DNA of 39,461 bases from Candidatus Omnitrophota bacterium (GTDB lineage: Bacteria > Omnitrophota > Gorgyraeia > 1-14-0-20-64-10): positions 1 through 39,461 of the forward strand of contig JACQCH010000015.1 in the NCBI GenBank assembly GCA_016201735.1, given 5' to 3'. Below the pieces are notes generated by a model that saw nothing but the letters and a program-made list of their open reading frames with translations, was not told where the DNA came from and ran no database searches. A program made the position numbers and the translations under genes. This document shows, in pieces, positions 1 to 34,633 of the stretch. Each line of letters starts with the position of its first letter. Positions within the stretch are counted from its first letter, which is position 1.

Positions 1-79
1 GGCGTTCCAAATACTTGCGGCAAGCCAGTTCCGTCGGGAATCGGCGCTGAAATTTGAGCATATCGTGGGCTTGGTACAT
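1..79 (-). CDS. IS1595-family transposase, N-terminal fragment cut by window edge
   Basis: The minus-strand frame from the ATG at 79 reads MYQAHDMLKFQRRFPTELAC and continues as RKYLER to the window edge. The pattern (MLxFQxRFPTxxACxxYLxxLRWPxG) is the usual start of IS1595/ISXO2-type transposases, just before their zinc-ribbon domain. A strong ribosome-binding site, GGAGGTGA, lies directly upstream (about 82-89). Only about 26 residues are visible, so whether the element is complete cannot be judged. It lies downstream of the aldo/keto reductase on the same strand. The family call rests on a short but characteristic stretch. Confidence 0.6.
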   Translation of the reverse strand, partial: MYQAHDMLKFQRRFPTELACRKYLER

Positions 80-91
80 TCTTCACCTCCG

Positions 92-115
92 TATGGTAGA
101 CATCATTCTACCATA
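92..115. repeat. 8-bp perfect inverted repeat between transposase and reductase gene
   Basis: TATGGTAG at 92-99 is the exact reverse complement of CTACCATA at 108-115, with an 8-base loop. On the minus strand it follows the stop codon of the aldo/keto reductase and precedes the ribosome-binding site of the transposase. It lacks a T-run, so it is not a classical intrinsic terminator. It could be an operator, a terminus-proximal element of the insertion sequence, or an RNA hairpin limiting read-through into the transposase. Confidence 0.45.
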
Positions 116-124
116 ACTGCGGAG

Positions 125-1120
125 TTAATAGGATAGGCGTGTATGATTGTGGACGGGCAATTGGGACAGTTCTTCCAAGGTGAGATCCGGAACGTTGGAA
201 GCGGCGGAGAATTCGGCCAGGAGATGGTCGTTGTAGATGTTGGGAAGGACCGAGGAGACGGAGGGTTCGCTCAGGATGAACTTCAGGGCCGCCTGGCCCA
301 GGGTGCGGCCGGTTTCCCCGGTGAGAAACTTCAACTGCTCCACCTTCTTCAAGCCCTCCTCCTGCCACTGGCGTTTCTTCTCATCGGTGGAGACCCGGTG
401 GTACCGGTGATCGTTCTCGGTGAAGGTGGTCTCCGGTCGGACCGTGCCGTCGAGCAGGCCGGAGGCATGGGGGACCCGCACGAGAAAGCTGGACTGCCCC
501 TGCCGCCCGATCGGAAACAAGTCCAACCCAAGCATCTGCTCCAGCAGGTTGTAGATGATCTGGACTGAGTCGACGCGGCGCGTCTCGATGGCGGCCTTCC
601 CCTCATCGATCTGCCGGGCGTTGATGGCCGGCCCTAAAGCGACCCCGTAGGCCCGGATCTTCCCTGCCCGCTTGAGCTTTTCCAATGTCTCGAACACCTC
701 GGTCCGCTGGATCACATCGATCCGGGGATTGTGAAGCTGGTACAGGTCGATCCAATCGGTGCCGAGCCGTTTGAGGGATTCGTTCAGAGCAAATTCCAAA
801 TAGTCCGGAGAGAAATCCTGCGGAAGCTCCTCCTGGCCTCTGCGGCCGGTGTGATGGTAGAAATCGTAGCCGACCTTGGTGCCGATCAGGATTTTGTCCC
901 GGTGCGGTCCCAGCGCCTTGACAAGGATCGTCTCCCCCAGCCCGTTGCCGTAGGTGTCGGCGGTGTCGAAAAAATTAATCCCCAGATCGAACGCCTTTTG
1001 CAAGAGGGAAACCCCGATCGACTCCTCTTTCACTCCCCACCAGGTCGTTGAGACGGTCCAGACGCCGAACCCGATCTCGGAGACCTTTAAGCCGGTTTTC
1101 GCGAGCTCTCGGTATTTCAT
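125..1120 (-). CDS. Aldo/keto reductase
   Basis: A 331-residue NAD(P)H-dependent oxidoreductase of the aldo/keto reductase superfamily, a cytosolic TIM barrel reducing aldehydes or ketones. The catalytic tetrad is in place: Asp52 ([11 protein letters not shown]), Tyr57, Lys82 (IGTKVG) and His130 (DLYQLHNP). The C-terminal region [21 protein letters not shown] is the usual cofactor-binding part. The start ATG at 1120 overlaps the nuoI stop as ATGA, so the two genes are translationally coupled. Being the last gene of a complex I operon, where nuoJ is normally found, is odd. The substrate cannot be inferred. Many homologues are annotated as general stress or methylglyoxal reductases, but nothing here supports one of these specifically. 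Confidence 0.9.
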
Positions 1121-1776
1121 TCAACCACCTTGTCATTCCCGCGAAAGCGGGAATCCCGATCCTCGCTTTCGCGAGGATGACTTCCGTAGACGGATTCCCA
1201 GCTTCCCTCGATTTGATTCCCGTGGATGGCGCACTGGTGGGGGAATTTCAATTGGCATTCGGCGACCGGCTTGCGCAGTTTCGGATCCATCAGCTCATGG
1301 ATGTCCAGCTTCATCGCGTCCCGGGAGTAGGCGGCAATGTCCAGGATGTCGGTGTCCATCCGGATCGCATCCTCCGGGCAGGCCTCCACGCAGTAGCCGC
1401 AGTAGACGCAGACCCCCAGGTCGATGTCGAACCGGACCGGGTATTTCTCCACGTTCGGGTCCGGGTGTTCTCCAGCGACGATCGTGATGCATTTAGCCGG
1501 GCAGACGGTCTCGCAGAGCATGCAGCCCACACAGCGGGGAGTCCCCTCCTCCCGGACGGTGAGCCGGTGCCGGCTCCTGAAGCGGGGCTCCAGCGGCCGG
1601 GGCTGTTCCGGATACTGGAAGGTCACCGCCGCCGGCAGATCTTTGAAGAGGCCGAACCGGTGGACCGTGTGGAGGAACAGGTTCCTGAAGAAGTGGGCGG
1701 AGGTGAGCCACACCCCCCGGATGATCTCCGGGATGTAGATCTGCTCCCAGAATGTCAGTTCACGCTTGCGTGGCAT
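1117..1776 (-). CDS. nuoI: NADH-quinone oxidoreductase subunit I
   Basis: The 219-residue 8Fe ferredoxin-like subunit of complex I. It carries clusters N6a and N6b, which pass electrons from the peripheral arm to NuoB. The two binding motifs are C82xxC85xxC88xxxC92P and C123xxC126xxC129xxxC133P. The N-terminus ([12 protein letters not shown]) is the membrane-associated helix. The ATG at 1776 directly abuts the nuoH stop. The last 20 or so residues (about 198-216) are not NuoI sequence: they are translated from a family A palindromic repeat (1132-1181) that reads through in frame before the stop at 1117-1119, which overlaps the next gene. Confidence 0.96.
1132..1181. repeat. Family A double palindrome in the 3' end of nuoI
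   Basis: Two adjacent hairpins, ATTCCCGC-GAAA-GCGGGAAT and ATCCTCGC-TTTC-GCGAGGAT, bounded by GTCA and TGAC. Close copies lie at 7884, 8001 (half), 9521, 31926 and 34607. Each stem is 8 bp with a GAAA loop on one strand. Here the unit is translated as part of the NuoI C-terminus. It resembles repetitive extragenic palindrome pairs but lies inside a gene. Confidence 0.9.
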
Positions 1777-2874
1777 CTACCATCCTCCGGGATGCAGAAG
1801 GGCCAGCACGAGCCCGGTCACCAGCACATTGGCGATGGAGATCGGGAATAAAATCTTCCAGCCCAGGTGCATCAACTGATCGTACCGGAACCTCGGCAGG
1901 GTCCAGCGGATCGTCATGAAGAGCCAGCAGAAGGCCAGCACCTTCAGAGAGAAAGAGCCGATCCCGAGGAGGACGACTGCCAACGGGTTCACCGGAAGCA
2001 CCGCTCCCCAGGGAAAATGGAATCCATCCGGGAGAAGATACGGGATCTGCCAGCCGCCGAAGAAAAGGGTGGTCGCCAGGCACGCCACCATCACCGTCTC
2101 GACGAAATCGGTCAAGAAAAACATCCCGAACTTCATCCCGCTGTACTCGACGAAGTAGCCGATGATCTCGCTCTCCCCTTCGGGCAGGTCGAACGGGACC
2201 CGCTTGGTCTCCGCCATCGCCGCCGTCAGAAAAATGAAGAAGGCGACCGGTTGGACGACGATCCCCCATTTTGGAATAATCCCGAACAGGGTCGCCCCCT
2301 GTGCCCGGACCAACTCCTGCAGGTCCAGGGTGCCGAAGATCATCACCACCCCGACGATGGAGATCCCCAGGGCGATCTCGTAGGAGATCATTTGGGCCGA
2401 AGCCCTCAAGGCCCCCAAAAAAGCATAGTTGTTGCGGGAAGCGTACCCCGCCAGGATCACCCCGTAAACGCCGAGGGAGAGCATCGCGAAGATGTAAAGG
2501 AGGGCCACATCGATCTTCGCCACCTGGAGGTCTATGACCCGGCCGCCGATCATCAGCCGGTCCCCGAACGGGATCCCGGCAAAAGCAGCCAGGGCGAAAA
2601 AAACCGAGAGGAACGGGGCGAGGGTGTGGAGGAACCGGTTGGCCCCTGCTGGGATAAAATCCTCCTTCACAAACATCTTCACCGCGTCGGCCAGCGGATG
2701 AAACAGCCCGAAGAGCCGGATCCCGAAGATGCTGGCCCGGTTCGCCCCGATCCGGTCCTGCATGATGGCGGACTGCTTCCGCTCGACCCAAGTGTGAAGC
2801 CCGGCCAAGTTCAGCACGCCGAAGAAGACGATTGCAGCCAGCGCCAGCTTGATGAGGAGATCCACTCCAGTCAT
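1777..2874 (-). CDS. nuoH: NADH-quinone oxidoreductase subunit H
   Basis: A 365-residue integral membrane subunit that links the peripheral arm of complex I to the proton-pumping arm and forms much of the quinone chamber. The conserved cytoplasmic loop is clear: WVERKQSAIMQDRIGANRAS near residue 30, followed by PLADAVKMFVKEDFIPAGAN. The later loop (about residues 220-245) contains ETKRVPFDLPEGESEIIGYF, the conserved acidic quinone-channel segment. About eight hydrophobic helices are visible, and the length is close to the family norm (320-370). It lies between nuoG and nuoI; the gap to nuoG (2875-2896) borders a repeat-derived nuoG 3' end. Confidence 0.97.
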   Translation of the reverse strand: MTGVDLLIKLALAAIVFFGVLNLAGLHTWVERKQSAIMQDRIGANRASIFGIRLFGLFHPLADAVKMFVKEDFIPAGANRFLHTLAPFLSVFFALAAFAGIPFGDRLMIGGRVIDLQVAKIDVALLYIFAMLSLGVYGVILAGYASRNNYAFLGALRASAQMISYEIALGISIVGVVMIFGTLDLQELVRAQGATLFGIIPKWGIVVQPVAFFIFLTAAMAETKRVPFDLPEGESEIIGYFVEYSGMKFGMFFLTDFVETVMVACLATTLFFGGWQIPYLLPDGFHFPWGAVLPVNPLAVVLLGIGSFSLKVLAFCWLFMTIRWTLPRFRYDQLMHLGWKILFPISIANVLVTGLVLALLHPGGW

Positions 2875-2891
2875 GGTGAGTCCTTCGACGC

Positions 2892-2950
2892 GCCGTTCAC
2901 CCTGAGCCCCCGATCAAGTCGGGGGCAGGCCCAGTCGAAGGGTGAACGGC
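2892..2950. repeat. Family C palindrome forming the 3' end of nuoG
   Basis: GCCGTTCACCCT at 2892 pairs with AGGGTGAACGGC ending at 2950. The interior contains a second small palindrome (CCCCCGA...TCGGGGG). On the minus strand it is translated as the last residues of NuoG, HPSTGPAPDLIGGSG, and supplies the TGA stop. The same frame of the same family ends nuoF and sufD. Confidence 0.85.
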
Positions 2951-4528
2951 TTGCTCAGGACCAACGGCGGCAAGCCGCTCAAACAGCTCTGTCAGGATCT
3001 GGGAATCGGCCCGAGAATCCTTGAGCGGCTCGAAGGCCTTGGTGAACTTCTGGGCCAGGCCGTGGCAGTTGGTGAAGGCGCCGTCCTTCTCCGCGTAGAC
3101 GGCGCTGGGCAGAACCCAGTGGGCGTAGCGGGAGCTTCCGTTCTCGTTGGATCCCTGGAAAACAAAAAGCTCCAACTCCTGGGACAACTTCTTGACCGTC
3201 TGCTCGCCGAACAGCTTGACCAGATCATGCCCGAACACCCAGAGGACATTGATCTGGCCGGCAAGACAACGATCGATAATTTGAGCTGCAGTGCACCGTT
3301 CGTCCTGAGTAGCCGGCCGTCGTCCTTCGACAAATCCTGCCCTGAGCTTGCCGAAGGGCTCAGGACGAACGGCCGGCGTATCGAAGGACGAACCTGCCAA
3401 TCCTGCCGAAACCGCCCCGGCGGTGTTCGGGTTCTTGTCCGCCTTGATGAGGAAGTCGTCGCTGGTGCCCGGCTTCTCCGGAACCCGGGCATCGCATTGG
3501 GAAATCCCGAGGGAATCGACGAACAATTTCCGGATCAGGAAAAGCTCCTCGGTGGTCAACTGCGCGGAGGGAATCACGCCGATCTGCCCCTGCCGATTCT
3601 CCTCCTTGACCCGGCCCAAAGCGCCGGCCAACTCCATCAACGCCTTCTCCCAGGTCGTCTCCACACCCCGATGCGTGACCTTGCGCAGACGCCCCTGGTC
3701 GATGAAGTGATAGCCGTAGCGGCCCTCGTCGCAGATCCACCATTGGTTGACCTCGGCGTTGTACCGGGGCTTGACCCGCATCACTCTGGCCCCGCCGGCC
3801 AGATGGGGCCGGTCGGTGACATAATGGATGTCGATGTTGCAGCCCTGCGAACAGCCGTTGCAGACGGAGGGAGAAGAAGAAAGGTACCAGACCCTGGCCT
3901 TGAACCGGAAATCCCGGTCGGTGAGAGCCCCGACCGGGCAAACATCCACCACGTTGCCGGAATATTTGTTGTTCAGCTCCTTCCCCGGATAAAGACCGAT
4001 CTCCGATTGATCGCCCCGGTTAAAGATCCCCAGTTCCCCGGTCTTGGTGATTTCATCGGTGAACCGGACGCACCGGGAGCAGAGGATGCACCGCTCCGCG
4101 TCGAGCATCACGGTCGGCCCCAGCGGAACCGCCTTGGTCTTCTTCACCTTCTGCTCCTTGAAGCGGGGATCGTACAGCCCGTACTGCATGTAAAAGTTCT
4201 GCAGGTCACACTCGCCGGACTGGTCGCAGACCGGGCAGTCCAGCGGATGGTTGATCAGCAGGAACTCCAGCACCGACTGCCGGCCCTGTTCCACCTTCTG
4301 GCCGTTGGTGCGGACCACCATCCCATCGGCCACCGGCGTGTTGCAGGCGATCTGGAGTTTCGGGGCCTTCTCGATCTCAACGAGGCAGATCCGGCAGTTG
4401 CCGGCGATGGAAAGCCCCGGATGGTAGCAGTACCGGGGAACAAAGATCCCCATGCTCTCCGCGGCCTGGATCACCGTGGTCCCGGGATCAACCGTAATCT
4501 GCTTTCCGTCGATCGTCAGTGTAGGCAT
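2897..4528 (-). CDS. nuoG: NADH-quinone oxidoreductase subunit G, short form with two repeat insertions
   Basis: The Fe-S subunit of the NADH module. From the ATG at 4528 (GGAG 5 bases upstream; an upstream GTG at 4543 is less likely) the protein has 543 residues. All four cluster sites are visible: N1b C34/C45/C48/C62; N5 H94/C98/C101/C107; N4 C147/C150/C153/C197; and the extra N7-type site C223xxC226xxxC230...C266. The molybdopterin-oxidoreductase-like C-terminal part is much shorter than in most NuoG proteins (680-900 residues). Residues of about 386-410 are encoded by an in-frame palindrome (3296-3374), and the final 15 residues plus the stop codon come from another (2892-2950). Whether the short form is native or truncated by the repeat is open. 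Confidence 0.93.
   Translation of the reverse strand: MPTLTIDGKQITVDPGTTVIQAAESMGIFVPRYCYHPGLSIAGNCRICLVEIEKAPKLQIACNTPVADGMVVRTNGQKVEQGRQSVLEFLLINHPLDCPVCDQSGECDLQNFYMQYGLYDPRFKEQKVKKTKAVPLGPTVMLDAERCILCSRCVRFTDEITKTGELGIFNRGDQSEIGLYPGKELNNKYSGNVVDVCPVGALTDRDFRFKARVWYLSSSPSVCNGCSQGCNIDIHYVTDRPHLAGGARVMRVKPRYNAEVNQWWICDEGRYGYHFIDQGRLRKVTHRGVETTWEKALMELAGALGRVKEENRQGQIGVIPSAQLTTEELFLIRKLFVDSLGISQCDARVPEKPGTSDDFLIKADKNPNTAGAVSAGLAGSSFDTPAVRPEPFGKLRAGFVEGRRPATQDERCTAAQIIDRCLAGQINVLWVFGHDLVKLFGEQTVKKLSQELELFVFQGSNENGSSRYAHWVLPSAVYAEKDGAFTNCHGLAQKFTKAFEPLKDSRADSQILTELFERLAAVGPEQAVHPSTGPAPDLIGGSG
3296..3374. repeat. Family C palindrome inserted in frame inside nuoG
   Basis: CCGTTCGTCCTGAG at 3296-3309 is the exact reverse complement of CTCAGGACGAACGG at 3359-3372. 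The interior contains a second, imperfect pair. The insert adds about 26 residues (including AVRPEPFGKLRAGFVEGRRP) to NuoG without a stop or frameshift. It lies between SAGLAGSSF and the helix AAQIIDRCLAGQINVLWVFG. Confidence 0.85.
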
Positions 4529-4539
4529 GGTTTCTCCGG

Positions 4540-4601
4540 TCACCCTGAGTTTGTCGAAGGGTGACGATCCGTTCGTGGTTCGACAAGCTCACCACGAACG
4601 G
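4540..4601. repeat. Paired family C palindromes at the nuoF 3' end
   Basis: Two back-to-back hairpins: TCACCCT...AGGGTGA (4540-4564) and CCGTTCGTGGT...ACCACGAACGG (4569-4601), with conserved loop sequence GAGCTTGTCGA or its complement. On the minus strand they encode the last residues of NuoF (AVRGELVEPRTDRHPSTNSG), the TGA stop overlapping into the nuoG leader, and end 11 bases before the nuoG start. Confidence 0.88.
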
Positions 4602-6447
4602 CTAACTCACATCTTCCAGTGGCAATATGATGCTCGAACTCGGAGCGGAATTTCTGGATGTACGACTGGACCGGCCAGGCCGCGGCGTCGGCGAAGACAC
4701 AGATGGTCTTCCCCTCCATGTTCCCCGCCACGGAGAGCAGCGCGTCCAGATCGTGCGGCCGGCCCTGCCCTTTTAAAATTCGATCCATGATCTTGAAAAC
4801 CCAGCCCGTCCCCTCCCGGCAAGGGGAGCATTGCCCGCACGACTCATCCTTAAAGAAGTGGGAAGCGCTCCAGAGGGCCTGCACGATGCAGGTGGTCTCA
4901 TCCATCACGATCACCCCGGCGGAGCCGGCCATCGTCCCGGCCGCCATCAGAGAATCGAAATCCATCGCCACGTTGATCTCCTCCGCCGTCAGGATCTTGG
5001 CGGAGATGCCTCCGGGAATCACCGCCTTCAGTTTCTTGCCGGCCCGGACGCCGCCGGCGTACCTCGAATCGAAGATCAGATCCTTGAGCGTCACTGCGAC
5101 CGGCGCCTCGTACAACCCCGGCCGGACGACATGCCCGCACAAACTGAACAACCGGGTCCCCCCCTGCTTGGCCGTCCCGAGTTTGGCGAACCATTCCGGG
5201 CCGTTCCGGATAATCGGCGGGACGCAGGCCAAGGTCTCCACGTTGTTCACAATCGTCGGGCACTTGAACAGCCCCGAGATCGCCGGAAACGGCGGCTTCA
5301 ATTTCGGGAACCCCTTGCCCCCCTCGAGGGAAGTCAACAAGGCCGTCTCCTCCCCGCAAATGTAAGCCCCCGCTCCCCGGTGGATCACGATCTCCAGATC
5401 GAAGCCGCTCCCCTGAATGTTCTTCCCGATCCACCCTTTCCCCCTCGCCTCCTCCATGGCCTTGGCGAACCGCTGGGCCGGACGGACGTACTCACCCCGA
5501 ATGTAGATGTACGCCTTGTGGGAGCCGATCGCGTAAGCGGCGATGATCATCCCCTCGATCAGGGCGTGCGGGTCCCGCTCCAGAATGTACCGGTCCTTGA
5601 AGGTGCCCGGCTCCCCCTCATCGGCGTTGACGACCAGGAATTTCGGTTTTGGGTTATCCTTCGGGATGAATCCCCACTTCTTCCCGGTCGGGAACCCGGC
5701 GCCGCCCAAGCCCCTCAGGTTGGATTTCAATACCGTCTCGATCACCTGGGCGGGGGTCGAGGTCAGCGCCTGCTTGGCCGCCTGGTATCCGCCGTCCGCG
5801 GCGTAGGCGTCGAACCAAGCCCCCTCAGCGCTCCTGAACCGCTTCGAGAGTACCGGCCCCTCCGTGCTCACGTACGGCTGGAACTCCGTTCGCCCTGAGC
5901 CTGTCGAAGGGCGAACGTTCGCTCGTGCTTCGACAAGCTCAGCACGAGCGGAATCAACCAGCCAATCGTGGGTCTCCGGGGTTTTTAAGACATGATCAAG
6001 AACCTGGTTCAGGGTTTCCGGGGTCAGCGGCCCGACGTACCGCTCATTGATTTGCGTCGCCGGCGCCGCTTCGCAGGCGCACAGGCATTCCACCGTCGAG
6101 AGGGTCACCTTCCCGTCCGGGGTCGTCTGCCCCGCCCCGATCCCCAGTCGCTCCTCCAACTGCGCGAGGACCCGCTTTGCTCCTTTAAGCAGGCACGGCA
6201 GGGTCGTGCAAACCTGGATGTGGTGCTTGCCGATCGGCTTCGTATGGTACAGCGTGTAGAAGGAAACCACTTCCCGAACATGGGCGATCGAGACTCCTAT
6301 TCTTTCACCGACCCATTGCTCCCCTTCCGGCGGGATGTATCCGAACTTCTCCTGGACGAGCCATAGAAGGGGCAGCATCGCCGCCCGCTTCTCCTCGTAC
6401 CGCCCGATGATCTTATCGGCTTCAGATTCTAGCTGCTTAAAATCCAT
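4540..6447 (-). CDS. nuoEF: NuoE-NuoF fusion, NADH dehydrogenase [2Fe-2S]/FMN subunits
   Basis: One 635-residue reading frame carries both NADH-oxidising subunits of complex I. Residues 1-160 are NuoE, with [2Fe-2S] cluster N1a ligands C80, C85, C121 and C125. Residues 190-612 are NuoF: NADH loop RGLGGAGFPTGKKWGF (245-260), FMN motif VNADEGEPGTFKDR (273-286), GAYICGEETALL and cluster N3 ligands C537/C540/C543 and C583. The two halves are joined by about 24 residues (SARAELVEARANVRPSTGSG and following) translated from a pair of family C palindromes at 5885-5951, and the protein ends on another copy. The usual separate nuoE stop and nuoF start are gone. Natural NuoEF fusions may exist elsewhere; the repeat-made linker is the odd part. 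Confidence 0.93.
   Translation of the reverse strand: MDFKQLESEADKIIGRYEEKRAAMLPLLWLVQEKFGYIPPEGEQWVGERIGVSIAHVREVVSFYTLYHTKPIGKHHIQVCTTLPCLLKGAKRVLAQLEERLGIGAGQTTPDGKVTLSTVECLCACEAAPATQINERYVGPLTPETLNQVLDHVLKTPETHDWLVDSARAELVEARANVRPSTGSGRTEFQPYVSTEGPVLSKRFRSAEGAWFDAYAADGGYQAAKQALTSTPAQVIETVLKSNLRGLGGAGFPTGKKWGFIPKDNPKPKFLVVNADEGEPGTFKDRYILERDPHALIEGMIIAAYAIGSHKAYIYIRGEYVRPAQRFAKAMEEARGKGWIGKNIQGSGFDLEIVIHRGAGAYICGEETALLTSLEGGKGFPKLKPPFPAISGLFKCPTIVNNVETLACVPPIIRNGPEWFAKLGTAKQGGTRLFSLCGHVVRPGLYEAPVAVTLKDLIFDSRYAGGVRAGKKLKAVIPGGISAKILTAEEINVAMDFDSLMAAGTMAGSAGVIVMDETTCIVQALWSASHFFKDESCGQCSPCREGTGWVFKIMDRILKGQGRPHDLDALLSVAGNMEGKTICVFADAAAWPVQSYIQKFRSEFEHHIATGRCELAVRGELVEPRTDRHPSTNSG
5885..5951. 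repeat. Paired family C palindromes at the nuoE/nuoF junction
   Basis: Two head-to-head hairpins, CCGTTCGCCCT...AGGGCGAACG and CGCTCGTGCT...AGCACGAGCG, with the same GAGCTTGTCGA-type loops as the other copies. The unit lies exactly where the intergenic nuoE/nuoF boundary is expected and is open in the nuoE and nuoF frame, so it bridges the two proteins. Confidence 0.88.
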
Positions 6448-6459
6448 TTCAAACCGTCA

Positions 6460-6545
6460 TCCTCTTCAAGATGCCATCCTCACCCCGGGTGTCATCCTCG
6501 CCCTCGGTCGTGGCCGAGGGCAGGCTCCAGCGAGGATCAAGTCCT
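6460..6545. repeat. Composite repeat block between nuoE and the GIY-YIG gene
   Basis: The stretch contains three partial GTCATCCTC-type units (family A edges) and a CCCTCGGTC...GACCGAGGG-like palindrome, also found at 8040-8070. It lies directly upstream of nuoE and directly downstream of the GIY-YIG gene; the last codons of that gene (GGIPA, stop) are already repeat sequence. No good ribosome-binding site or promoter for nuoE was seen in it, so nuoE probably depends on upstream transcription. Confidence 0.6.
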
Positions 6546-6841
6546 CAAGCGGGAATCCCTCCCACAATCTCCGGATACAAATCCTTCAGAGTCGGATTCA
6601 GCTTCCGTATCAAATCGAGCTTCCACTCCCGGTTCCAATGCTTGATCTGCTTTTCCCTTACAATGGCATCTTCGATAGAACCGAACTCCTCAAAATAGAA
6701 CAGGTCGTGAAGTCCGTATTTCTTGGTAAATCCTTCCACCAATCCCTGCTTGTGTTCATAAACACGACGCACAAGATCATTGGTAACCCCGATGTAGAGG
6801 GTCGGCCTTCGGTTACCCATGACATACACGTAGTAACTCAT
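6545..6841 (-). CDS. Small GIY-YIG nuclease-domain protein
   Basis: A 98-residue single-domain protein of the GIY-YIG superfamily (UvrC N-terminal/UPF0213-like). Landmarks are YYVYVM for the GIY strand, TLYIGVTNDLVRRVYEHKQG for the YIG strand and catalytic Arg helix, the conserved FxxKYGLHDLFYFEEF, and Glu in EDAIVREKQIKHW, the metal-binding region. The protein looks intact. Its C-terminus (GGIPA, stop) runs into a family A repeat fragment, and another fragment (GTCATCCTCGCG, from about 6859) lies just before its start. It lies inside the complex I operon between nuoD and nuoE, with the PD-(D/E)XK-like gene upstream. Biological substrates of these small proteins are unknown; a role in spreading the neighbouring palindromes is my hypothesis. 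Confidence 0.88.
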   Translation of the reverse strand: MSYYVYVMGNRRPTLYIGVTNDLVRRVYEHKQGLVEGFTKKYGLHDLFYFEEFGSIEDAIVREKQIKHWNREWKLDLIRKLNPTLKDLYPEIVGGIPA

Positions 6842-6859
6842 GCTTACCCAACTAAAATG

Positions 6860-7792
6860 TCATCCTCGCGATAGCAGCTTTTTAGCGAGTATCATAGTGG
6901 CTATGTCTTCAGCCAGACTCAATGGTGAAGCACCAAAACCTTCAAGATTTCTTACCCAAAATGTCTCCGAAACCTCTCCTTTGGGAGTCTTAACTGTCAT
7001 TCTACAACCCACTCGGACAGTGTTTTTTGAAGCTTCTATTCGGCGTTGAACAGCCTCCAGGACTTCTTTGTCTGACAGATTGCCTGGAGGAACGGGTGGA
7101 AGCGGAAGCTCTGGTTCGCTCAGATACTCCGTGTCCCAGCTTATCCAGAGTCCCTTCTCTGACGCTTCGTGCTGAAGTTTGGCAGATTCAACGGCTATTG
7201 GGTTCCAATCCAGTTCAGCCATGACCTCGATGTTAGTTATCAAATCCTGAATGTATTCGTACTGATGGCTTGACGGTAGGCCATCTATGATCTCTTTATC
7301 CTCCTCCAAAGCTTTCGTCAGGGTTGGCTGAAAATGCCGCCTAGCAAGGACTTGACCAATTAGCCCATCCACAATGGTCAGGGTGAGGTCTTCACCAAGC
7401 GGTACTTTCTCGTCATACGAAACAACGAAGAAAGGATAATTTGCCTCCTGGCAAACTCTTGTTTTCAAACCAAGTTTCAAGCTGCGGAGGGGATTGTTTC
7501 TAAAAGGTGCCGGAACATATTGCCCATCTCTGCTAAAACCATGACACATACCATCGAACTCGACTGATACGAGAGGTTCATCCTGTTTAGTACAGAGGGT
7601 GTAATCAACGCTGGTCGCGTAAAGATATTTCTTTTCCTTCTCGGAGAGGGTATCTGATCTGTCAATCTCAATAACGAGGGCAGAAAAAGGGAGGGAAGGA
7701 TAAAGGTTAAACTCCTTGCTCCAATGACTATGCAAGGTGGCAAAAAGTTCCTTCTCACTCTCACTGCCGAAAACATTTTTACGGACTTTCAC
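6860..7792 (-). CDS. DUF2726-like PD-(D/E)XK-type nuclease domain protein
   Basis: A 310-residue protein of unknown function. Residues 10-150 look like a DUF2726/PD-(D/E)XK fold: helix with Glu (SESEKELFATL), strand LYPSLPFSALV, SVDYTLC (Asp63), and VSVEFDGMCHGF with Glu78, Asp80 and His84 in the usual catalytic positions, followed by NYPFFVVSYDEK. The C-terminal half has no recognised domain; it ends with a compact unit (RVGCRMTVKTPKGEVSETFW). The start is GTG at 7792, with GGGGAG upstream. The DNA is visibly more AT-rich than the flanking nuo genes, which suggests acquisition. The family assignment is by pattern only. Confidence 0.6.
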   Translation of the reverse strand: MKVRKNVFGSESEKELFATLHSHWSKEFNLYPSLPFSALVIEIDRSDTLSEKEKKYLYATSVDYTLCTKQDEPLVSVEFDGMCHGFSRDGQYVPAPFRNNPLRSLKLGLKTRVCQEANYPFFVVSYDEKVPLGEDLTLTIVDGLIGQVLARRHFQPTLTKALEEDKEIIDGLPSSHQYEYIQDLITNIEVMAELDWNPIAVESAKLQHEASEKGLWISWDTEYLSEPELPLPPVPPGNLSDKEVLEAVQRRIEASKNTVRVGCRMTVKTPKGEVSETFWVRNLEGFGASPLSLAEDIATMILAKKLLSRG

Positions 7793-8148
7793 TTTTATTC
7801 CACTCCCCTGTAAAAGCTACTTGTGATATCGGAATAAGATTTGTCAACCTCTTCCGCAATTCCAGTGCATCCCACGTTTGTCCGTCATCCTCGCGAAAGC
7901 GAGGATCTGATCCTCATTTTCATGAGGATGACAGCTGCAGGCACGGACGAATCTTGGATGCACCCCGCAATTCCAGCGCCATCCCGGGCAAGTACACCTT
8001 GATCCTCGCTTTCGCGAGGATGACGGCTTCTGCGAGAGCCTGCCCTCGGCTTGACCGAGGGATGACGGTTTCTGCGATCCCCGCTGGAGTTTACCCTCGA
8101 GCGACATCGAGGGCAGGGATGACAGGTGAACGCGGGTATGACGTTGGT
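7793..8148. repeat. Repeat-filled gap between nuoD and the nuclease island
   Basis: This 356-base gap contains no gene. It holds a full family A unit (7884-7932), a half unit (8001-8024), two CCCTCGG/CCGAGGG-type palindromes (about 8043-8070 and 8094-8122) and a short direct repeat, CCGCAATTCCAG, at about 7854 and 7967. A -35-like TTGACA on the minus strand (about 7847-7852) may belong to a promoter of the nuclease gene, but no convincing -10 box sits 17 bases downstream. The block resembles successive insertions of palindromes into one another. Confidence 0.75.
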
Positions 8149-9513
8149 TCATCGGTCGAGTTCCCCGCCGATCATGTTCACCGAGCCGAAGGTGGGAATC
8201 ACATCCGCCATCATGTCTCCAACCAACAACTTCGGCAGGGCCGCCATGATCGTGAAGCAGGGAGGGCGCACCCGGACCCGATAGGCATTGTCGGAGCCGT
8301 CGCTGACGACGTAGAAGCCCAGCTCTCCATTGGCCCCTTCCACCGGGAGATAAACCTCCCCCTTCGGCGGCCGGATCCCATGCCCGAACATCACCAGCTT
8401 GAAATGCTGCATGAGTCCTTCGATGTTCCCGTAGGTATCCTCTTTCGGAGGCAGGAACACCCGCTTCTCCGGAGCCGCGATGTTCGCGTGAACCGGCTTC
8501 TCGGATCCCTCCAGCGTCGGATCGGTGACGGCGATCTTGCCGGCGATCTGCCGGATCCTCCCCATCTTCGCCGCATCCACCATCTCTGCCGCGGGGATCG
8601 CCTCCTCTTTCTCCTCGCTCGGCTCCATGGGCCGGCCGGTCTCCGGGTCAATCAGTACCGGCCCGGCCGGGATCTGCTTGAGACAGCGCTCGATGATCCG
8701 CATCGACTGCTCCATCTCCTCCATCCGGACGAAATACCGGTCCAGGTTGTCCCCATGGGAACCGAGAGGAACCTCGAACTCCAGCCGGTCGTACACCGAG
8801 TAGGGACAGGCCTTGCGAACATCGTAATTGACGCCGGTCGCCCGGAGGAACGGCCCGGTGATTCCATAAGAGACGGCATCCTCCTGGGAAATCTTGCCGG
8901 TTCCCTTCATCCGGTCCACGAAGATCCGGTTGCGGGTCAACAGTTTGTCCACCTCCACCAGGACGTTCCGGGTTTCCTTCAGCGCCTTCTCGCACCGCTC
9001 CGGGAAACCGGCGGGCAAATCTGCTTTAACTCCCCCCACCCTGCAGTAGGAGACGGTCAGCCGAGCCCCGGTCACCGCCTCCACCAACTCCCAGAGGTAT
9101 TCCCGGGCCTTGATCATATAAAGGAAGACGGTAAAGGCCCCCAGCTCCATGGCGCTGGCCCCGACACAGGTCAAGTGGTCGGTGATCCGTGAAATCTCGG
9201 AGCAGATCACCCGGATGTACTGGCATCGCTCCGGCACCTGGACTCCGAGAAGTTTCTCGACGGCCATGCAGTAGCCCATGTTGTTGATGAGCGGCGAGAC
9301 GTAATTCAACCGGTCGGTGTACGGGATCACTCCGTTGTAGGTGACAACCTCCGCCATCTTCTCGAACCCCCGGTGAAGATAGCCGATCTCCACATCGGCG
9401 GAGCGGACCGTTTCTCCATCCAGCCCCAGAATCATCCGGATGATCCCGTGCATCGCCGGGTGAGCGGGCCCAACGTTGAGCAGCATTTCTTTCGTTTCCA
9501 ACTGATTCTCCAT
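8149..9513 (-). CDS. nuoD: NADH-quinone oxidoreductase subunit D
   Basis: The 49-kDa-type subunit of complex I, forming the quinone-binding cavity with NuoB. Diagnostic segments are LLNVGPAHPAMHGIIRM near the N-terminus, EIGYLHRGFEKMAE, DRLNYVSPLINNMGY and the C-terminal DVIPTFGSVNMIGGELDR. It has about 458 residues against roughly 400 for most NuoD proteins: a charged insertion (about residues 296-360) precedes the conserved TYGNIEGLMQHFKL motif. The ATG at 9513 is chosen over one at 9525, which lies inside the family A repeat at 9521-9564; the repeat end, GGGGATGAC, may serve as its ribosome-binding site. Confidence 0.96.
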   Translation of the reverse strand: MENQLETKEMLLNVGPAHPAMHGIIRMILGLDGETVRSADVEIGYLHRGFEKMAEVVTYNGVIPYTDRLNYVSPLINNMGYCMAVEKLLGVQVPERCQYIRVICSEISRITDHLTCVGASAMELGAFTVFLYMIKAREYLWELVEAVTGARLTVSYCRVGGVKADLPAGFPERCEKALKETRNVLVEVDKLLTRNRIFVDRMKGTGKISQEDAVSYGITGPFLRATGVNYDVRKACPYSVYDRLEFEVPLGSHGDNLDRYFVRMEEMEQSMRIIERCLKQIPAGPVLIDPETGRPMEPSEEKEEAIPAAEMVDAAKMGRIRQIAGKIAVTDPTLEGSEKPVHANIAAPEKRVFLPPKEDTYGNIEGLMQHFKLVMFGHGIRPPKGEVYLPVEGANGELGFYVVSDGSDNAYRVRVRPPCFTIMAALPKLLVGDMMADVIPTFGSVNMIGGELDR

Positions 9514-9520
9514 GGTATTT

Positions 9521-9564
9521 GTCATCCCCGCGCAAGCGGGGATCCTCGCTTTCGCGAGGATGAC
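9521..9564. repeat. Family A double palindrome between nuoC and nuoD
   Basis: GTCATCCCCGC...GCGGGGAT followed by ATCCTCGCTTTCGCGAGGAT and TGAC. It fills most of the short nuoC-nuoD gap and provides both an alternative ATG for nuoD (9525) and the only purine-rich stretch before ATG 9513. A short GTGGATC/GATCCAC palindrome follows at 9565-9582. Confidence 0.9.
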
Positions 9565-9582
9565 GTGGATCTTCGATCCACG

Positions 9583-10161
9583 TCAATTCACCGGACCGAT
9601 CAGGGGCTGGCGTTTGTTCACCGGATAATCTTTCCTCAACGGATGACCCTGGAACTCCTCGTACATCAGGATCCGCTTTAAGCCGGGATGCCCCGGGAAC
9701 CGGATCCCGAACATGTCCCACACCTCTCGCTCAAACCAGTTGGCGCTGGCCCAGAGCGGAGTGAGGGAATCCAGTTCACCCTCCGGCTCTTCGATGGGAA
9801 CCTTGACCCGCAGACGATGCTTGAGAGAGAGGGAGAAGAAATGGTACACCACCTCGAACCGGGCCTTGGTTGCCGGGCCCGGCCATGGCGCCGGATCGGG
9901 AACCTGCGTCAGGGCCGCCACCGGCACTCCCGAAGGAACAAAGCCGGCGGGGGCCGGCTTTTTCTTCCCGAAGGTTAAGAAATCCACCGCCGTCAGATCG
10001 ATCAGGAAATTCATTTGGAAGGCCGGGTCGTCCTTCAAGGTTCGGGCGATTTCCAGGAGATGTTCCCGGCGGATCGTCACCGTGGCATCGCCCCGGTAAT
10101 CATGGGTGGCGATGACCGCGGCGGGAAACCGGCTGGAGAGGAGTTCAGAGAGTGAAGCCAC
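9583..10161 (-). CDS. nuoC: NADH-quinone oxidoreductase subunit C
   Basis: The 30-kDa-type subunit of complex I, 192 residues, a peripheral-arm protein beside NuoD with no cofactor. The signature near residues 139-182 is WFEREVWDMFGIRFPGHPGL, RRILM-like KRILMYEEF and GHPLRKDYP. A proline- and alanine-rich stretch (about residues 68-95) separates the N-terminal sheet from the signature. The start overlaps the nuoB 3' end by 17 bases, which supports translational coupling. NuoC and NuoD are separate here, unlike the fused form in enterobacteria. Confidence 0.96.
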   Translation of the reverse strand: MASLSELLSSRFPAAVIATHDYRGDATVTIRREHLLEIARTLKDDPAFQMNFLIDLTAVDFLTFGKKKPAPAGFVPSGVPVAALTQVPDPAPWPGPATKARFEVVYHFFSLSLKHRLRVKVPIEEPEGELDSLTPLWASANWFEREVWDMFGIRFPGHPGLKRILMYEEFQGHPLRKDYPVNKRQPLIGPVN

Positions 10162-10681
10162 GCCGCGCCTCAGCCGCTAACTCGGAGGTTTTTCCATAAT
10201 ATCGCTGAGCGGGAGGGTACGGCTTGCCGTCGGCTTGAGCCTGAATCTTCTCCTGAAGCTTCAAGAGCCCATCCAGCACATACTCCGGTCTCGGAGGACA
10301 CCCGGGAATATAGATGTCGACCGGAATCAGGGTATCGATCCCCATCACCGTCGCGTAGTTGTCGTAGAAGCCGCCGGTGCAGGTGCAGACCCCGAACGCC
10401 ACCACCCATTTCGGTTCGGTCATCTGGTCGTGGATCTTCTTCAAAACCGGGGCGATCTTATGGCTGATCGTCCCAACGACAAACAGGACGTCCGCCTGCC
10501 GGGGCGAGAACCGGGGGAACCCGGCCCCGAATCGGTCCACGTCGTAATGAGAGCAGGCCGTCGCCATATACTCCATCCCGCAGCAGGCCGTCACGAACGG
10601 GTATTGGAAGATCGAAAACTTCCGGGCCCAGCCGATGGCTGAATCCAGCTTGCTTGTGACGAAATTATCGCCGCCGAACAT
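10145..10681 (-). CDS. nuoB: NADH-quinone oxidoreductase subunit B
   Basis: The 20-kDa-type subunit (178 residues) carrying the terminal [4Fe-4S] cluster N2, the direct electron donor to quinone. Ligands are the adjacent C33-C34 (TACCGMEYMA), C99 (FGVCTCTGG) and C128 (YIPGCPPRPE). RFSPRQADVLFVVGTI is the conserved NiFe-hydrogenase-like small subunit segment. The region between the nuoA stop and this start consists only of a short palindromic repeat (10682-10713) that abuts the ATG, so the native ribosome-binding region appears replaced. Confidence 0.97.
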   Translation of the reverse strand: MFGGDNFVTSKLDSAIGWARKFSIFQYPFVTACCGMEYMATACSHYDVDRFGAGFPRFSPRQADVLFVVGTISHKIAPVLKKIHDQMTEPKWVVAFGVCTCTGGFYDNYATVMGIDTLIPVDIYIPGCPPRPEYVLDGLLKLQEKIQAQADGKPYPPAQRYYGKTSELAAEARRGFTL

Positions 10682-10713
10682 CGAGATTTCTCGCTTCGCT
10701 CGAAATGACGCCG
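10682..10713. repeat. Family D palindromic fragment between nuoA and nuoB
   Basis: The minus strand reads GTCATTTCGAGCGAAGCGAG and then AAATCTCG: a TTTCGAGCGAAGCGAGAAA palindrome with flanks, a third repeat type common as an interspersed element in many genomes. It occupies the whole nuoA-nuoB gap and ends at the nuoB start codon. It is the only copy seen here. Confidence 0.65.
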
Positions 10714-10714
10714 A

Positions 10715-11068
10715 TCATTGCCACTCCAAGGCCCCCTTCTTCCAGGCGTAGAGGAAGCCCGCCACCACGATCCCCATAAAGACGGCCATCTCCAGGAAAC
10801 CGGCCATCCCCAAATACCGGTAGACGACCGCCCAGGGAAACAGGAAGACCAGCTCCACATCGAACAGGATGAACAGCATCGCCACGAGGTAAAATTTCAC
10901 GGAGAAACGGCCGCCGGGCAGTTTGAACGGCTCCTCGCCGCATTCGAACGGCTCCGACTTGGCCGGCGTGGGGGCCTTCGGCCCGAGAACAGAGGCCAGG
11001 ACGATGAACGCCCCGCCGACCGCGGCCGCCAGGACGAACATGATGAGAATTCCCAGATATTCATTCAT
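10715..11068 (-). CDS. nuoA: NADH-quinone oxidoreductase subunit A
   Basis: A small three-helix membrane subunit of complex I. From the ATG at 11068 it has 117 residues, the family norm; upstream ATGs would add a non-conserved peptide. The conserved loop KSEPFECGEEPF and the segment RFSVKFYLVAMLFILFDVEL, followed by VFLFPWAVV, identify it clearly. It is the first gene of the nuo operon, and a promoter ends 13 bases before this start, which also supports the start choice. Confidence 0.95.
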   Translation of the reverse strand: MNEYLGILIMFVLAAAVGGAFIVLASVLGPKAPTPAKSEPFECGEEPFKLPGGRFSVKFYLVAMLFILFDVELVFLFPWAVVYRYLGMAGFLEMAVFMGIVVAGFLYAWKKGALEWQ

Positions 11069-11081
11069 GGAGAGAATTGCC

Positions 11082-11110
11082 ATTATATAATAGGAACCGC
11101 ACCGCCGCAA
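11082..11110 (-). promoter_or_regulatory. Promoter of the nuo operon
   Basis: On the minus strand TTGCGG (11110-11105), a 17-base spacer and a perfect TATAAT (11087-11082) precede the nuoA ATG at 11068. The predicted transcription start falls within about 7 bases of the ATG, so the leader would be very short, and no ribosome-binding site is seen. Prediction only. Confidence 0.6.
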
Positions 11111-11129
11111 GACGAGGAGCTTTATCCCC

Positions 11130-11924
11130 ATGAAACCGTATCTTCAACTGATGCACCAGGTCCTGGAACAGGGGACCAAAAAGCAGGATCGAACCGGAAC
11201 AGGGACATTGTCCTTCTTCGGCGCCCAGATCCGGTTTAATCTCTCCGAGGGCTTCCCTCTGATCACCACGAAGAGGATTCACTTAAGATCGGTGATCGTG
11301 GAACTGCTCTGGTTCCTCCGGGGAGACACCAACACCAAATACCTCAAGGACCATGGGGTCACCATCTGGGATGAGTGGGCCGATTCAAAAGGGGATTTGG
11401 GCCCCATCTACGGCCATCAATGGAGGAGCTGGCCCACCTCCGATGGGAAAACCATTGACCAGATCGGTCAGGTCATTGACCGGATCAAGAAGAACCCCGA
11501 TTCCCGGCGTCTCATCGTTTCGGCCTGGAACGTCGCGGAGATCGAACGGATGAAGCTTCCCCCCTGCCACTGCCTGTTCCAATTTTACGTGGCGGAGGGC
11601 AGACTCTCCTGCCAGATGTACCAGCGGTCCGCCGATCTGTTCCTGGGGGTTCCCTTCAACATCGCCTCCTATTCCCTGTTGACGATGATGTTCGCCCAGG
11701 TTTGTGGATTGCAGCCGGGGGAATTTATCCACACCTTCGGGGATGTCCACCTGTATCTGAATCATCTCGAGCAGGCAAAACTCCAGCTTTCCCGGGAGCC
11801 GTTCCCCCTGCCCCGGATGCGGCTGAACCCCGAGGTTAAATCAATCTTCGATTTCAAACCTGAGGACTTCACGCTGGAGAATTATCAGCATCATCTTCCG
11901 ATCCGAGCCGAAGTCGCCGTATGA
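11130..11924 (+). CDS. thyA: Thymidylate synthase
   Basis: Converts dUMP to dTMP using methylene-tetrahydrofolate, producing dihydrofolate. The 264 residues equal the E. coli enzyme length. The catalytic Cys146 is in [14 protein letters not shown], the phosphate-binding Arg pair in [14 protein letters not shown], and further conserved segments are [20 protein letters not shown] and [19 protein letters not shown] ribosome-binding site lies 10 bases before the ATG. It is divergent from nuoA and followed at once by folA, which regenerates tetrahydrofolate from the product. Confidence 0.98.
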
Positions 11925-11941
11925 CCGCCGTTCATTCTAAA

Positions 11942-11973
11942 CCGTTCGTCCTGAGCTTGTCGAAGGACGAAGG
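11942..11973. repeat. Family C palindrome between thyA and folA
   Basis: CCGTTCGTCCT, loop GAGCTTGTCGA, then AGGACGAAGG. It fills most of the 49-base gap, and its final AAGGACGAAGG lies immediately before the folA ATG (11974), so the repeat itself seems to provide the ribosome-binding site. Confidence 0.85.
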
Positions 11974-12459
11974 ATGATTATTTCTCTCGTTGTCGCCGTA
12001 TCGCAGAACGGCGTGATCGGCAAAAACAACCGTCTTCCCTGGAAACTACCGGCCGATCTGAAGCGATTCAAACAGCTCACGATGAATCACCCGATCCTCA
12101 TGGGGCGAAAAACCTTTGAGTCGATCGGGAAACCTTTGCCGGGGCGGACGAATATCGTGATCACCCATCAGAAGGATTTCGCATGCTGCGGGTGCCTGAC
12201 CGCCTCTTCCATTGAAAAGGGGCTCCAGCTCTGCGAAAATGCCGATGAGGTGTTCGTGATCGGCGGAGCGAGCATTTACGAGCAGTCCCTGCCGCTGGCG
12301 GACCGGATCTACCTGACGCGGATCCACCAGGATTTTGAGGGAGACACCCGACTGTTCAACTTGGACAAGTCGGCCTGGCAGGAAATCTTTCGGGAAGATT
12401 TCAAATCCGATACGGGGAATAAATACCCTTACAGCTTTGTTACCTTAAAGAAGAAGTAA
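11974..12459 (+). CDS. folA: Dihydrofolate reductase
   Basis: Reduces dihydrofolate to tetrahydrofolate with NADPH. The 161 residues match the bacterial norm. Visible are the N-terminal MIISLVVAVSQNGVIGKNN, the Met20-type loop with LPWKLPADLKRFK (the catalytic Asp in PADL), the NADPH motif MGRKTFESIGKPLPGRTN and VFVIGGASIYEQSLPLADRI. It follows thyA, whose reaction produces its substrate. The start codon immediately follows a palindromic repeat. It is convergent with the DUF2283 gene, 7 bases downstream. Confidence 0.97.
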   Translation: MIISLVVAVSQNGVIGKNNRLPWKLPADLKRFKQLTMNHPILMGRKTFESIGKPLPGRTNIVITHQKDFACCGCLTASSIEKGLQLCENADEVFVIGGASIYEQSLPLADRIYLTRIHQDFEGDTRLFNLDKSAWQEIFREDFKSDTGNKYPYSFVTLKKK

Positions 12460-31897: not shown

Positions 31898-32859
31898 TGG
31901 AGTCTGCGACAACACACGATGAATTGTCATTCCCGCGAAAGCGGGAATCCGATCCCCGCCTACGCGGGGATGACATTCTTGACCAGATCGGGAACACGCC
32001 GCTGATTCCATTGCGGAAGATCGGGCGGGAAATCCCCGGAGTCACCCTGCTGGCCAAAGCAGAATGGTTTAACCCGGGCGGATCGGTCAAGGATCGGGCC
32101 GCCGCCAGCATTGTCGCTGATGGAGAGCGGCGGGGCCTGCTCAACAAAGAGCGGATCCTGCTGGACGCCACCTCCGGGAACACCGGGGTGGCCTACGCGA
32201 TGATCGGGGCCGCCAAGGGATACCGGGTCAAATTATGCGTCCCGTCCAACGCCAGCCCCGAAATCTTGAAGACGCTCCGATCCTTCGGGGCCGAGGTTGT
32301 CCTCACCAGTCCCCTGGAGAGTTCCGACGGAGCGATCCGGGAAGCGCAGCGGCTGATGGAAGCGGAGCCCCACCGATACTTTTATGCCGATCAGTACGAC
32401 AATCCGGCCAACTGGCGCGCCCATTACGAAACCACCGGCCCGGAGATATGGGAGCAGACCGAAGGAACGGTCACCCATTTCGTGGCGGGTCTGGGAACCA
32501 GCGGAACCTTCATGGGGACGGCCAAGCGCCTCAAGGAATTCAACCCCTCGATCCAGGCGATCGCGGCCCAGCCGGATTCACCGCTCCACGGGCTGGAAGG
32601 GTTGAAGCACATGGCCACCTCCATTGTGCCTGGAATCTACGATCCACATTTTCCAGACCTCCATGTCGAGGTAAAAACGGAAGATGCCTACTGCTTCGTG
32701 AAGCGCCTCGCGATGGAGGAAGGACTTCTGGTCGGAATCTCTTCAGGCGCCGCTTTGGCGGCGGCCCTGAAAACAGCTCGGGAGATCCGGCAGGGTGTCA
32801 TCGTCATGATTTTTCCGGATGGAGGGTCACGGTATCTCGATGAACAGTTCTGGAAGTAA
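31891..32859 (+). CDS. Cysteine synthase (CysK/CysM family) with repeat-encoded N-terminal insert
   Basis: A PLP enzyme making cysteine from O-acetylserine (or O-phosphoserine) and a sulfur donor. About 322 residues. The family starts at ILDQIGNTPLIPL; PLP lysine in NPGGSVKDRAAASI, the cofactor-binding TSGNTGVAYAMIGAAKGY and GLGTSGTFMGTAKRL, and the C-terminal ISSGAALAAALK. Between the initial MVMESATTHDE and the domain lie about 18 residues ([16 protein letters not shown]) translated from a family A repeat. The ATG at 31891 has GGAG 8 bases upstream; an ATG at 31897 overlaps the previous stop (TAATG). Context of SUF genes and a MoeB-rhodanese gene suggests a CysO- or persulfide-linked sulfur donor, but this is inference. 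Confidence 0.93.
   Translation: MVMESATTHDELSFPRKRESDPRLRGDDILDQIGNTPLIPLRKIGREIPGVTLLAKAEWFNPGGSVKDRAAASIVADGERRGLLNKERILLDATSGNTGVAYAMIGAAKGYRVKLCVPSNASPEILKTLRSFGAEVVLTSPLESSDGAIREAQRLMEAEPHRYFYADQYDNPANWRAHYETTGPEIWEQTEGTVTHFVAGLGTSGTFMGTAKRLKEFNPSIQAIAAQPDSPLHGLEGLKHMATSIVPGIYDPHFPDLHVEVKTEDAYCFVKRLAMEEGLLVGISSGAALAAALKTAREIRQGVIVMIFPDGGSRYLDEQFWK
31926..31974. repeat. Family A double palindrome inside the cysteine synthase 5' region
   Basis: GTCATTCCCGC-GAAA-GCGGGAAT followed by ATCCCCGCCTACGCGGGGAT and GAC. Translated in frame as part of the N-terminus of the cysteine synthase. The second hairpin differs from other copies (CCCCGC stem, TA loop). Confidence 0.9.
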
Positions 32860-34327: not shown

Positions 34328-34633
34328 ATGACACCGGGAACGCACGTCCTACACGACGAAGTTGGGCATCGGTTTTACCTGCCCCTGGAAAACGGGGGTG
34401 AGGCCCTCTTACAATACCGGCAGGAGGGGAACGTCCTGGACTTCTACCACACGTATGTCCCGGAAGAGGCCCGAACAAAGGGGCTGGCAGAAATGGTCGT
34501 CGAGGCCGGCTTCCGTTACGCGCAAGAACATCATCTGAAGGTCATCCCCACCTGCCCCTACGTTTCAGCCGCGTTCCTCCGCAAGCGCAAAGAGTTCCTT
34601 CCTTTTGTCATTCCCGCGAAAGCGGGAATCTGA
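34328..34633 (+). CDS. YjdJ-type GNAT-fold acetyltransferase, repeat-terminated
   Basis: About 101 residues from ATG 34328 (one base after the previous stop). The N-terminal strand region VLHDEVGHRFYLPLENGGEA, FYHTYVPEEARTKGLAEMVV and EHHLKVIPTCPYVSAAFLRK fit the small YjdJ/N-acetyltransferase family that binds acetyl-CoA with a reduced GNAT core. The C-terminus FVIPAKAGI and the TGA stop come from a family A repeat (34607-34655). Substrate unknown. Last gene of the SUF string. Confidence 0.85.
   Translation: MTPGTHVLHDEVGHRFYLPLENGGEALLQYRQEGNVLDFYHTYVPEEARTKGLAEMVVEAGFRYAQEHHLKVIPTCPYVSAAFLRKRKEFLPFVIPAKAGI

Follow-up and report, generated by a model that had tools for sequence, protein, structure and literature searches.

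Facing nuoA–I and nuoJ–N units of complex I in Omnitrophota and an insertion sequence at a contig end

In a contig of a Candidatus Omnitrophota bacterium, the complex I gene nuoI is followed by an aldo/keto reductase (AKR) gene and an insertion sequence (IS), which raises the question of what has become of the membrane subunits encoded by nuoJ–N. The first-pass annotation of this locus described the AKR as taking the place of nuoJ and offered two explanations for the missing genes: an operon broken by rearrangement, with the IS as support, or a membrane arm encoded elsewhere.

The nuoA–I unit and the contig end

The DNA analysed (39,461 nucleotides, referred to as the window) is the whole of contig C22 (G000:C22) of a 1.81-Mb, 67-contig, 95%-complete genome; MAGs of Candidatus Omnitrophota are the nearest named relatives. 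The left edge of the contig, base 1, is therefore a contig end, that is, an assembly break, and it is for this reason that nuoJ–N are, as annotated, found nowhere downstream inside the window. The minus strand of positions 1–11131 carries, in gene order, nuoA, nuoB, nuoC, nuoD, a DUF2726-like gene, a GIY-YIG gene, a fused nuoE/F, nuoG, nuoH, nuoI and the AKR gene. From the contig end inwards, the features are:

1..141, minus strand: one end of an IS, identical to C25:1-141, with the partner end on C2/C62/C66/C1
125..1120, minus strand: AKR, 331 aa (PF00248, E 1.1e-46), last residues IS-encoded
142..150, no strand assigned: TATGATTGT, IS flank duplicated on C2 (9-bp duplication)
1117..1776, minus strand: nuoI, 219 aa (TIGR01971, 114.8 bits against a cut-off of 113.05)
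1132..1180, no strand assigned: copy of a dispersed palindromic repeat (DNA fold z -5.9)
1777..2874, minus strand: nuoH (PF00146, E 4.7e-105)
2897..4543, minus strand: nuoG, 548 aa (TIGR01973, 462.3 bits, slightly below the cut-off of 470.05)
4540..6447, minus strand: fused nuoE-nuoF, 635 aa (PF01257, PF01512 and PF10589)
6545..6841, minus strand: GIY-YIG protein, between nuoD and nuoEF (PF01541, E 3.7e-13)
6860..7792, minus strand: DUF2726-like protein, between nuoD and nuoEF (PF10881, E 0.0047, below cut-off)
8149..9525, minus strand: nuoD (PF00346, E 9.8e-103)
9583..10161, minus strand: nuoC (PF00329, E 1.4e-44)
10145..10681, minus strand: nuoB (PF01058, E 3.6e-25)
10715..11131, minus strand: nuoA (tblastn alignments with relatives begin at residue 9-22; identity 66-74% in the family)

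The true start of nuoA is probably further in than that of the open reading frame (ORF) listed. NuoI carries two C-x2-C-x2-C-x3-C (4Fe-4S) motifs, which are invariant in six aligned sequences bar one variable inter-cysteine position. In locus L053 the GIY-YIG gene occupies the same nuoD/nuoEF gap; L062/L109 have a further GIY-YIG match, located between nuoL and nuoK. Divergent from nuoA are thyA and a dihydrofolate reductase gene (11130-12459), neighbours that also occur in L055-L058, at a distance of 3.3 kb in L058.

The nuoI and AKR ORFs (1117-1776 and 125-1120) are both on the minus strand and overlap by four bases (ATGA), just as first annotated. The palindromic repeat within the end of nuoI has the core GTCATTCCCGCGAAAGCGGGAATC; this 24-bp core occurs 29 times genome-wide at ≤2 mismatches (0 in the reversed control), with copies in the window at 1132-1180, 9521-9544, 31926-31949 and 34607-34630. 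The first of these extends the nuoI reading frame, and the C-terminal ~18 residues of NuoI derive from it. We rejected the idea that the ATGA overlap is a mere by-product of the repeat: in G001, where nuoI has a different tail, the two genes also overlap by 4 bases.

An insertion sequence between nuoA–I and nuoJ–N

The IS annotated after the AKR is real, but only its last 141 bases lie in the window and it starts inside the AKR ORF, whose last residues (bases 125-141) it encodes; the transposase start codon is near base 79 and reads off the contig. The opposite IS end opens contigs C1, C2, C62 and C66. On C22 the IS is adjoined by TATGATTGT, and the same nine bases, on the other strand, adjoin it on C2 but not on C1, C62 or C66. 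As TATGATTGT is shared by C22 and C2 only, we infer from this 9-bp duplication and from synteny that the two, which are separate contigs in the assembly, are joined via one IS copy. The other copies pair by the same flank rule (C25 with C66 through AACAGGAGA, and C9 with C62 through TAACCCGAA), giving matching ends and a 9-bp duplication in 3/3 IS contig pairs. With the flanks joined without the IS, the AKR stops one residue past the last codons left in the window, where the IS adds five residues instead; it ends at a similar place in four relatives. Assignment to the IS1595 type is tentative (PF12762 matches a 43-aa fragment at E 0.26, with only two IS fragments to go by), and the fragment ORFs have weak similarity to plasmid ORFs. 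The C9 copy (L016:5953-6542) keeps only ~65 bp of the end and then continues into different sequence, perhaps another mobile element.

A search of the full genome located nuoJ, K, L, M and N on C2, on the opposite strand, with nuoN 1.2 kb from the contig end, and a second nuoJ–N set on C59 (L004:6668-12522). After the IS, C2 carries a 335-aa ORF (L003:218-1225), for which we found no match in Pfam and none by tblastn in relatives, followed by nuoN, M, L, K and J, all of which point towards that ORF, so that the joined order is nuoA-I-AKR (IS) ORF > < nuoN-J. Of the two explanations first offered, it is thus a membrane arm encoded outside the nuoA–I unit that was borne out, and the AKR does not stand in for nuoJ, which is present on C2. 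Loss of nuoJ–N was rejected given the two sets in the genome, and a colinear continuation past the IS was rejected given the opposite orientation. Finding nuoJ–N just beyond the IS, which would make the case a simple insertion, was the result named as refuting the first-pass annotation. It holds by half: just beyond the IS they are, but inverted, which leaves no simple insertion into a nuoJ–N-containing operon. C2 encodes a true NuoL (NF005141, 635.9 bits; cut-off 556). A long nuoL-nuoM overlap was dismissed: the longer frame is probably a false start, since the window's genome, L102, L104, L105, L108 and L109 share a start located 13 bases ahead of the nuoL stop.

The facing arrangement recurs in relatives. 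In 8/8 genomes of the same family (G001-G008), a single contig carries nuoI and nuoN in facing orientation, without this IS. Six of these have nuoI and a complete nuoJ–N; G006 retains only the end of nuoI, and the G004 contig ends after nuoN and the start of nuoM. Seven further Omnitrophota loci were inspected, two of which (L134 and L141) end after nuoI and hence are not readable downstream. The layout is convergent in four of the remaining five (L131, L132, L133 and L135), and L136 has no nuoJ–N match in the 4.3 kb after nuoI. As judged from these gene orders, the convergent split is an old arrangement in these uncultured Omnitrophota.

These observations lead to an explanation that, as a whole, we hold with high confidence. 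The complex I genes would be intact and arranged in two tail-to-tail transcription units, nuoA–I (with the AKR in some genera) facing nuoJ-K-L-M-N; the IS would have landed in the last AKR codons, broken the assembly and made nuoJ–N look missing. All core subunits A–N are encoded (A–I in the window, with E and F fused, and J–N on C2), and the two units together would supply all subunits (14, E/F fused) of one NADH:quinone oxidoreductase. Like canonical bacterial complex I (NDH-1, nuoA-N), the Omnitrophota set has all core subunits and three antiporter-like subunits, L, M and N; it differs in that it forms two convergent units instead of one operon, in that E and F are fused, and in that the AKR ends the nuoA–I unit. 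On this explanation, the apparent loss of the membrane arm of complex I from this lineage is spurious.

That the IS itself broke a standard nuoA-N operon and carried off or inverted nuoJ–N, as the first annotation had supposed possible, would fit its position exactly at the junction and the inversion of nuoJ–N relative to nuoA–I. However, the same inversion exists without this IS in every family relative and in more distant Omnitrophota, and therefore the IS did not cause the split; furthermore, the IS is flanked by a target duplication of its own, which is what a simple insertion would leave. We consider this scenario extremely improbable. Only slightly less improbable, in our view, is that the window's nuoA–I products work with the C59 nuoJ–N set while the C2 set serves another complex. 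The genome does have two nuoJ–N sets and two A/B/C/D/H/I sets, and because of this second nuoJ–N set (C59) and the nuoBCD-I-A-H set (C39) the partner of the window's nuoA–I is assigned by synteny in relatives, not by biochemistry. Against the C59 partnership, C2-type nuoJ–N sit beside nuoA–I in all relatives where nuoJ–N genes were seen there, and the C39 set, which is without nuoE, F and G in the stretch read, would be left with the C2 set.

The C39 genes (L022:3191-15599) comprise nuoB-C-D fused into one 786-aa protein, followed by nuoI, A and H, and adjoin genes for a Rieske ferredoxin, a ferredoxin, a nitrite/sulfite reductase and a 2-oxoacid:ferredoxin oxidoreductase. This suggests that the second set, on C39 and C59, is a ferredoxin-linked complex I. 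Two small genes between nuoBCD and nuoI (L022:12311-13040 and 11600-12127) resemble, by eye, a nucleotidyltransferase/HEPN pair.

The aldo/keto reductase gene after nuoI

Residues D52, Y57, K82 and H130 of the AKR, which we take to be the Asp-Tyr-Lys-His catalytic-tetrad positions, are invariant across five orthologues. The nearest solved structures are GSP69 (1pz1) and IolS (1pyf), and no NCBIfam equivalog reached its cut-off in a profile search. We read the protein as a putative carbonyl reductase that depends on NAD(P)H, is translated together with nuoI and hence shares its expression; it would be a separate soluble NAD(P)H enzyme and no substitute for nuoJ.

An AKR gene directly follows nuoI in five of the nine family genomes (the window's own and G001-G004), with orthologues 68-82% identical to the window's. 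The distances from the nuoI stop to the AKR start are -4, -4, -34, +1 and +115 bases, that is, within -34 to +1 in four. The four other family genomes, two of them incomplete (G006 and G007), have their best full-length AKR match elsewhere, at only 32-36% identity. No AKR was found at the Acidobacteriota/Planctomycetota loci in a search of 40 loci, a number of which stop soon after nuoI.

The coupling, for which the first-pass annotation had considered accident, is conserved and looks like more than that; the shared NAD(P)H demand also suggested there is speculative. The opposing view, that the AKR stands there by chance and is unconnected with complex I, has in our estimate slightly less than an even chance of being right. 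In its favour, the AKR is absent from the place after nuoI in 4/9 family genomes, its presence and absence on the family tree require two changes, and we know of no complex I that includes an aldo/keto reductase. Against it, all five genomes with an AKR orthologue have that gene right after nuoI, mostly at the close spacing given above.

Separate histories of nuoA–I and nuoJ–N

Window NuoH is 74-87% identical to that of its own family, 71-79% to that of Acidobacteriota/Planctomycetota and 62-69% to that of other Omnitrophota; the respective values for NuoI are 73-86%, 70-79% and 65-70%. On this measure the window's nuoA–I comes almost as near to Acidobacteriota/Planctomycetota as to its family, and nearer to them than to other Omnitrophota; for nuoJ–N the order is reversed, with 48-67% identity to other Omnitrophota and 28-48% to Acidobacteriota/Planctomycetota.

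Trees, all of the quick kind with SH-aLRT supports and no bootstrap, gave the same contrast. In the 39-row nuoA–I tree, the 20 Acidobacteriota/Planctomycetota rows form one clade (100) joined to the window's family (100), and L141 and then four other Omnitrophota fall outside this grouping (98, 99). The first free nuoA–I tree was 10.8 log units short of a better one with a monophyletic family. A constraint that keeps the 14 Omnitrophota rows of a 38-row set in one clade was rejected (p 0.00046), and the same constraint on a 20-row tree gave only p 0.045. In the nuoJ–N tree, all Omnitrophota group together (100), far from Acidobacteriota/Planctomycetota, and the nuoA–I grouping is rejected (p 2e-8). 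The latter tree was built from own-type queries, and the own NuoL query matched MrpD-type genes in Acidobacteriota/Planctomycetota, so its L column compares unlike genes there; the contrast is the same in the J, K, M and N columns and in identity tables with queries from both sides. Rows for L114, L132 and L133 (too few columns) and L178 (long branch) were dropped. Misbinning as the source of the mixed histories was rejected because nuoA–I and nuoJ–N lie on one contig in both Omnitrophota and Acidobacteriota/Planctomycetota.

At the Acidobacteriota/Planctomycetota-group loci, nuoN is upstream of nuoA on the same strand in 11/11 that reach well beyond nuoA, with a 1.5 kb gap in L110 (titled Acidimicrobiia, a doubtful taxonomy). 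The order is J-K-X-X-M-N-A in the eight fetched further. In L170, on which alone NCBIfam was run, both X genes are of MrpD type (NF006236 slightly under cut-off, NF009310 over), with M and N behind them; the other seven loci match these two genes at 67-78%, so that two MrpD-like subunits replace NuoL in 8/8. Omnitrophota are without this pair, as MrpD queries match their nuoJ–N at only 24-34%. Green complex I of Ensifer/Sinorhizobium plasmids has the order J-K-MrpD-(small)-MrpD-M-N-A-B-C-D-E-F-G, with H-I separate (J and G are unannotated in one stretch read for this order). The acidobacterial MrpD genes are 55 and 57% identical to those of Ensifer, and Acidobacteriota/Planctomycetota nuoA–I share 58-88% identity with the window's (values listed for 5 of the 8 loci), compared to only 34-53% for Ensifer and Sinorhizobium. 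The Acidobacteriota/Planctomycetota complex, with green-like MrpD and Omnitrophota-like A–I, thus pairs a green-type arm with an Omnitrophota-type A–I half.

The trees point to the transfer of one half of a complex I operon. Probably, the A–I unit, which comprises the redox arm and the two membrane subunits that hold it, travels apart from J–N; an Omnitrophota-type A–I would have passed to Acidobacteriota/Planctomycetota and been joined behind a green-type J-K-MrpD-MrpD-M-N arm, such that closely related redox halves would today be coupled to an arm with three pumps in one phylum and with four in others. Given that Omnitrophota A–I is paraphyletic with respect to that of Acidobacteriota/Planctomycetota and that the convergent layout is common across the phylum, a transfer that started in Omnitrophota is the simplest account; had it run the other way, the genes of the window's family would have had to be replaced in place.

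The titles and abstract openings consulted yielded no report of a convergent nuo arrangement or of this A–I transfer, the original 2016/2018 green and 2M papers being outside that scope. Complex I has been reported in Omnitrophota, in a text that, as far as consulted, gives no gene order (PMC10066038), and a word search of the main text of a complex I survey (PMC12361115) returned neither Omnitrophota nor Planctomycetota. According to the portions consulted, green complex I is described in rhizobia (PMC7415380), and green and 2M complex I are described alongside a hybrid in Candidatus Manganitrophaceae (PMC9040806). The present case resembles the former in that Acidobacteriota/Planctomycetota relatives of the window's A–I sit behind a green-type J-K-MrpD-MrpD-M-N arm, whereas in the complex of Omnitrophota a true NuoL is present and the MrpD pair is absent. 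It resembles Complex_I_3 of Manganitrophaceae, likewise inferred to be a hybrid of differently derived parts (PMC9040806), but Manganitrophaceae exchanged antiporter subunits, whereas here the break falls between nuoA–I and nuoJ–N. Closely related redox halves with different pump numbers would form a natural enzyme pair for a direct test of the proton-to-electron ratio and of the compatibility of the halves.
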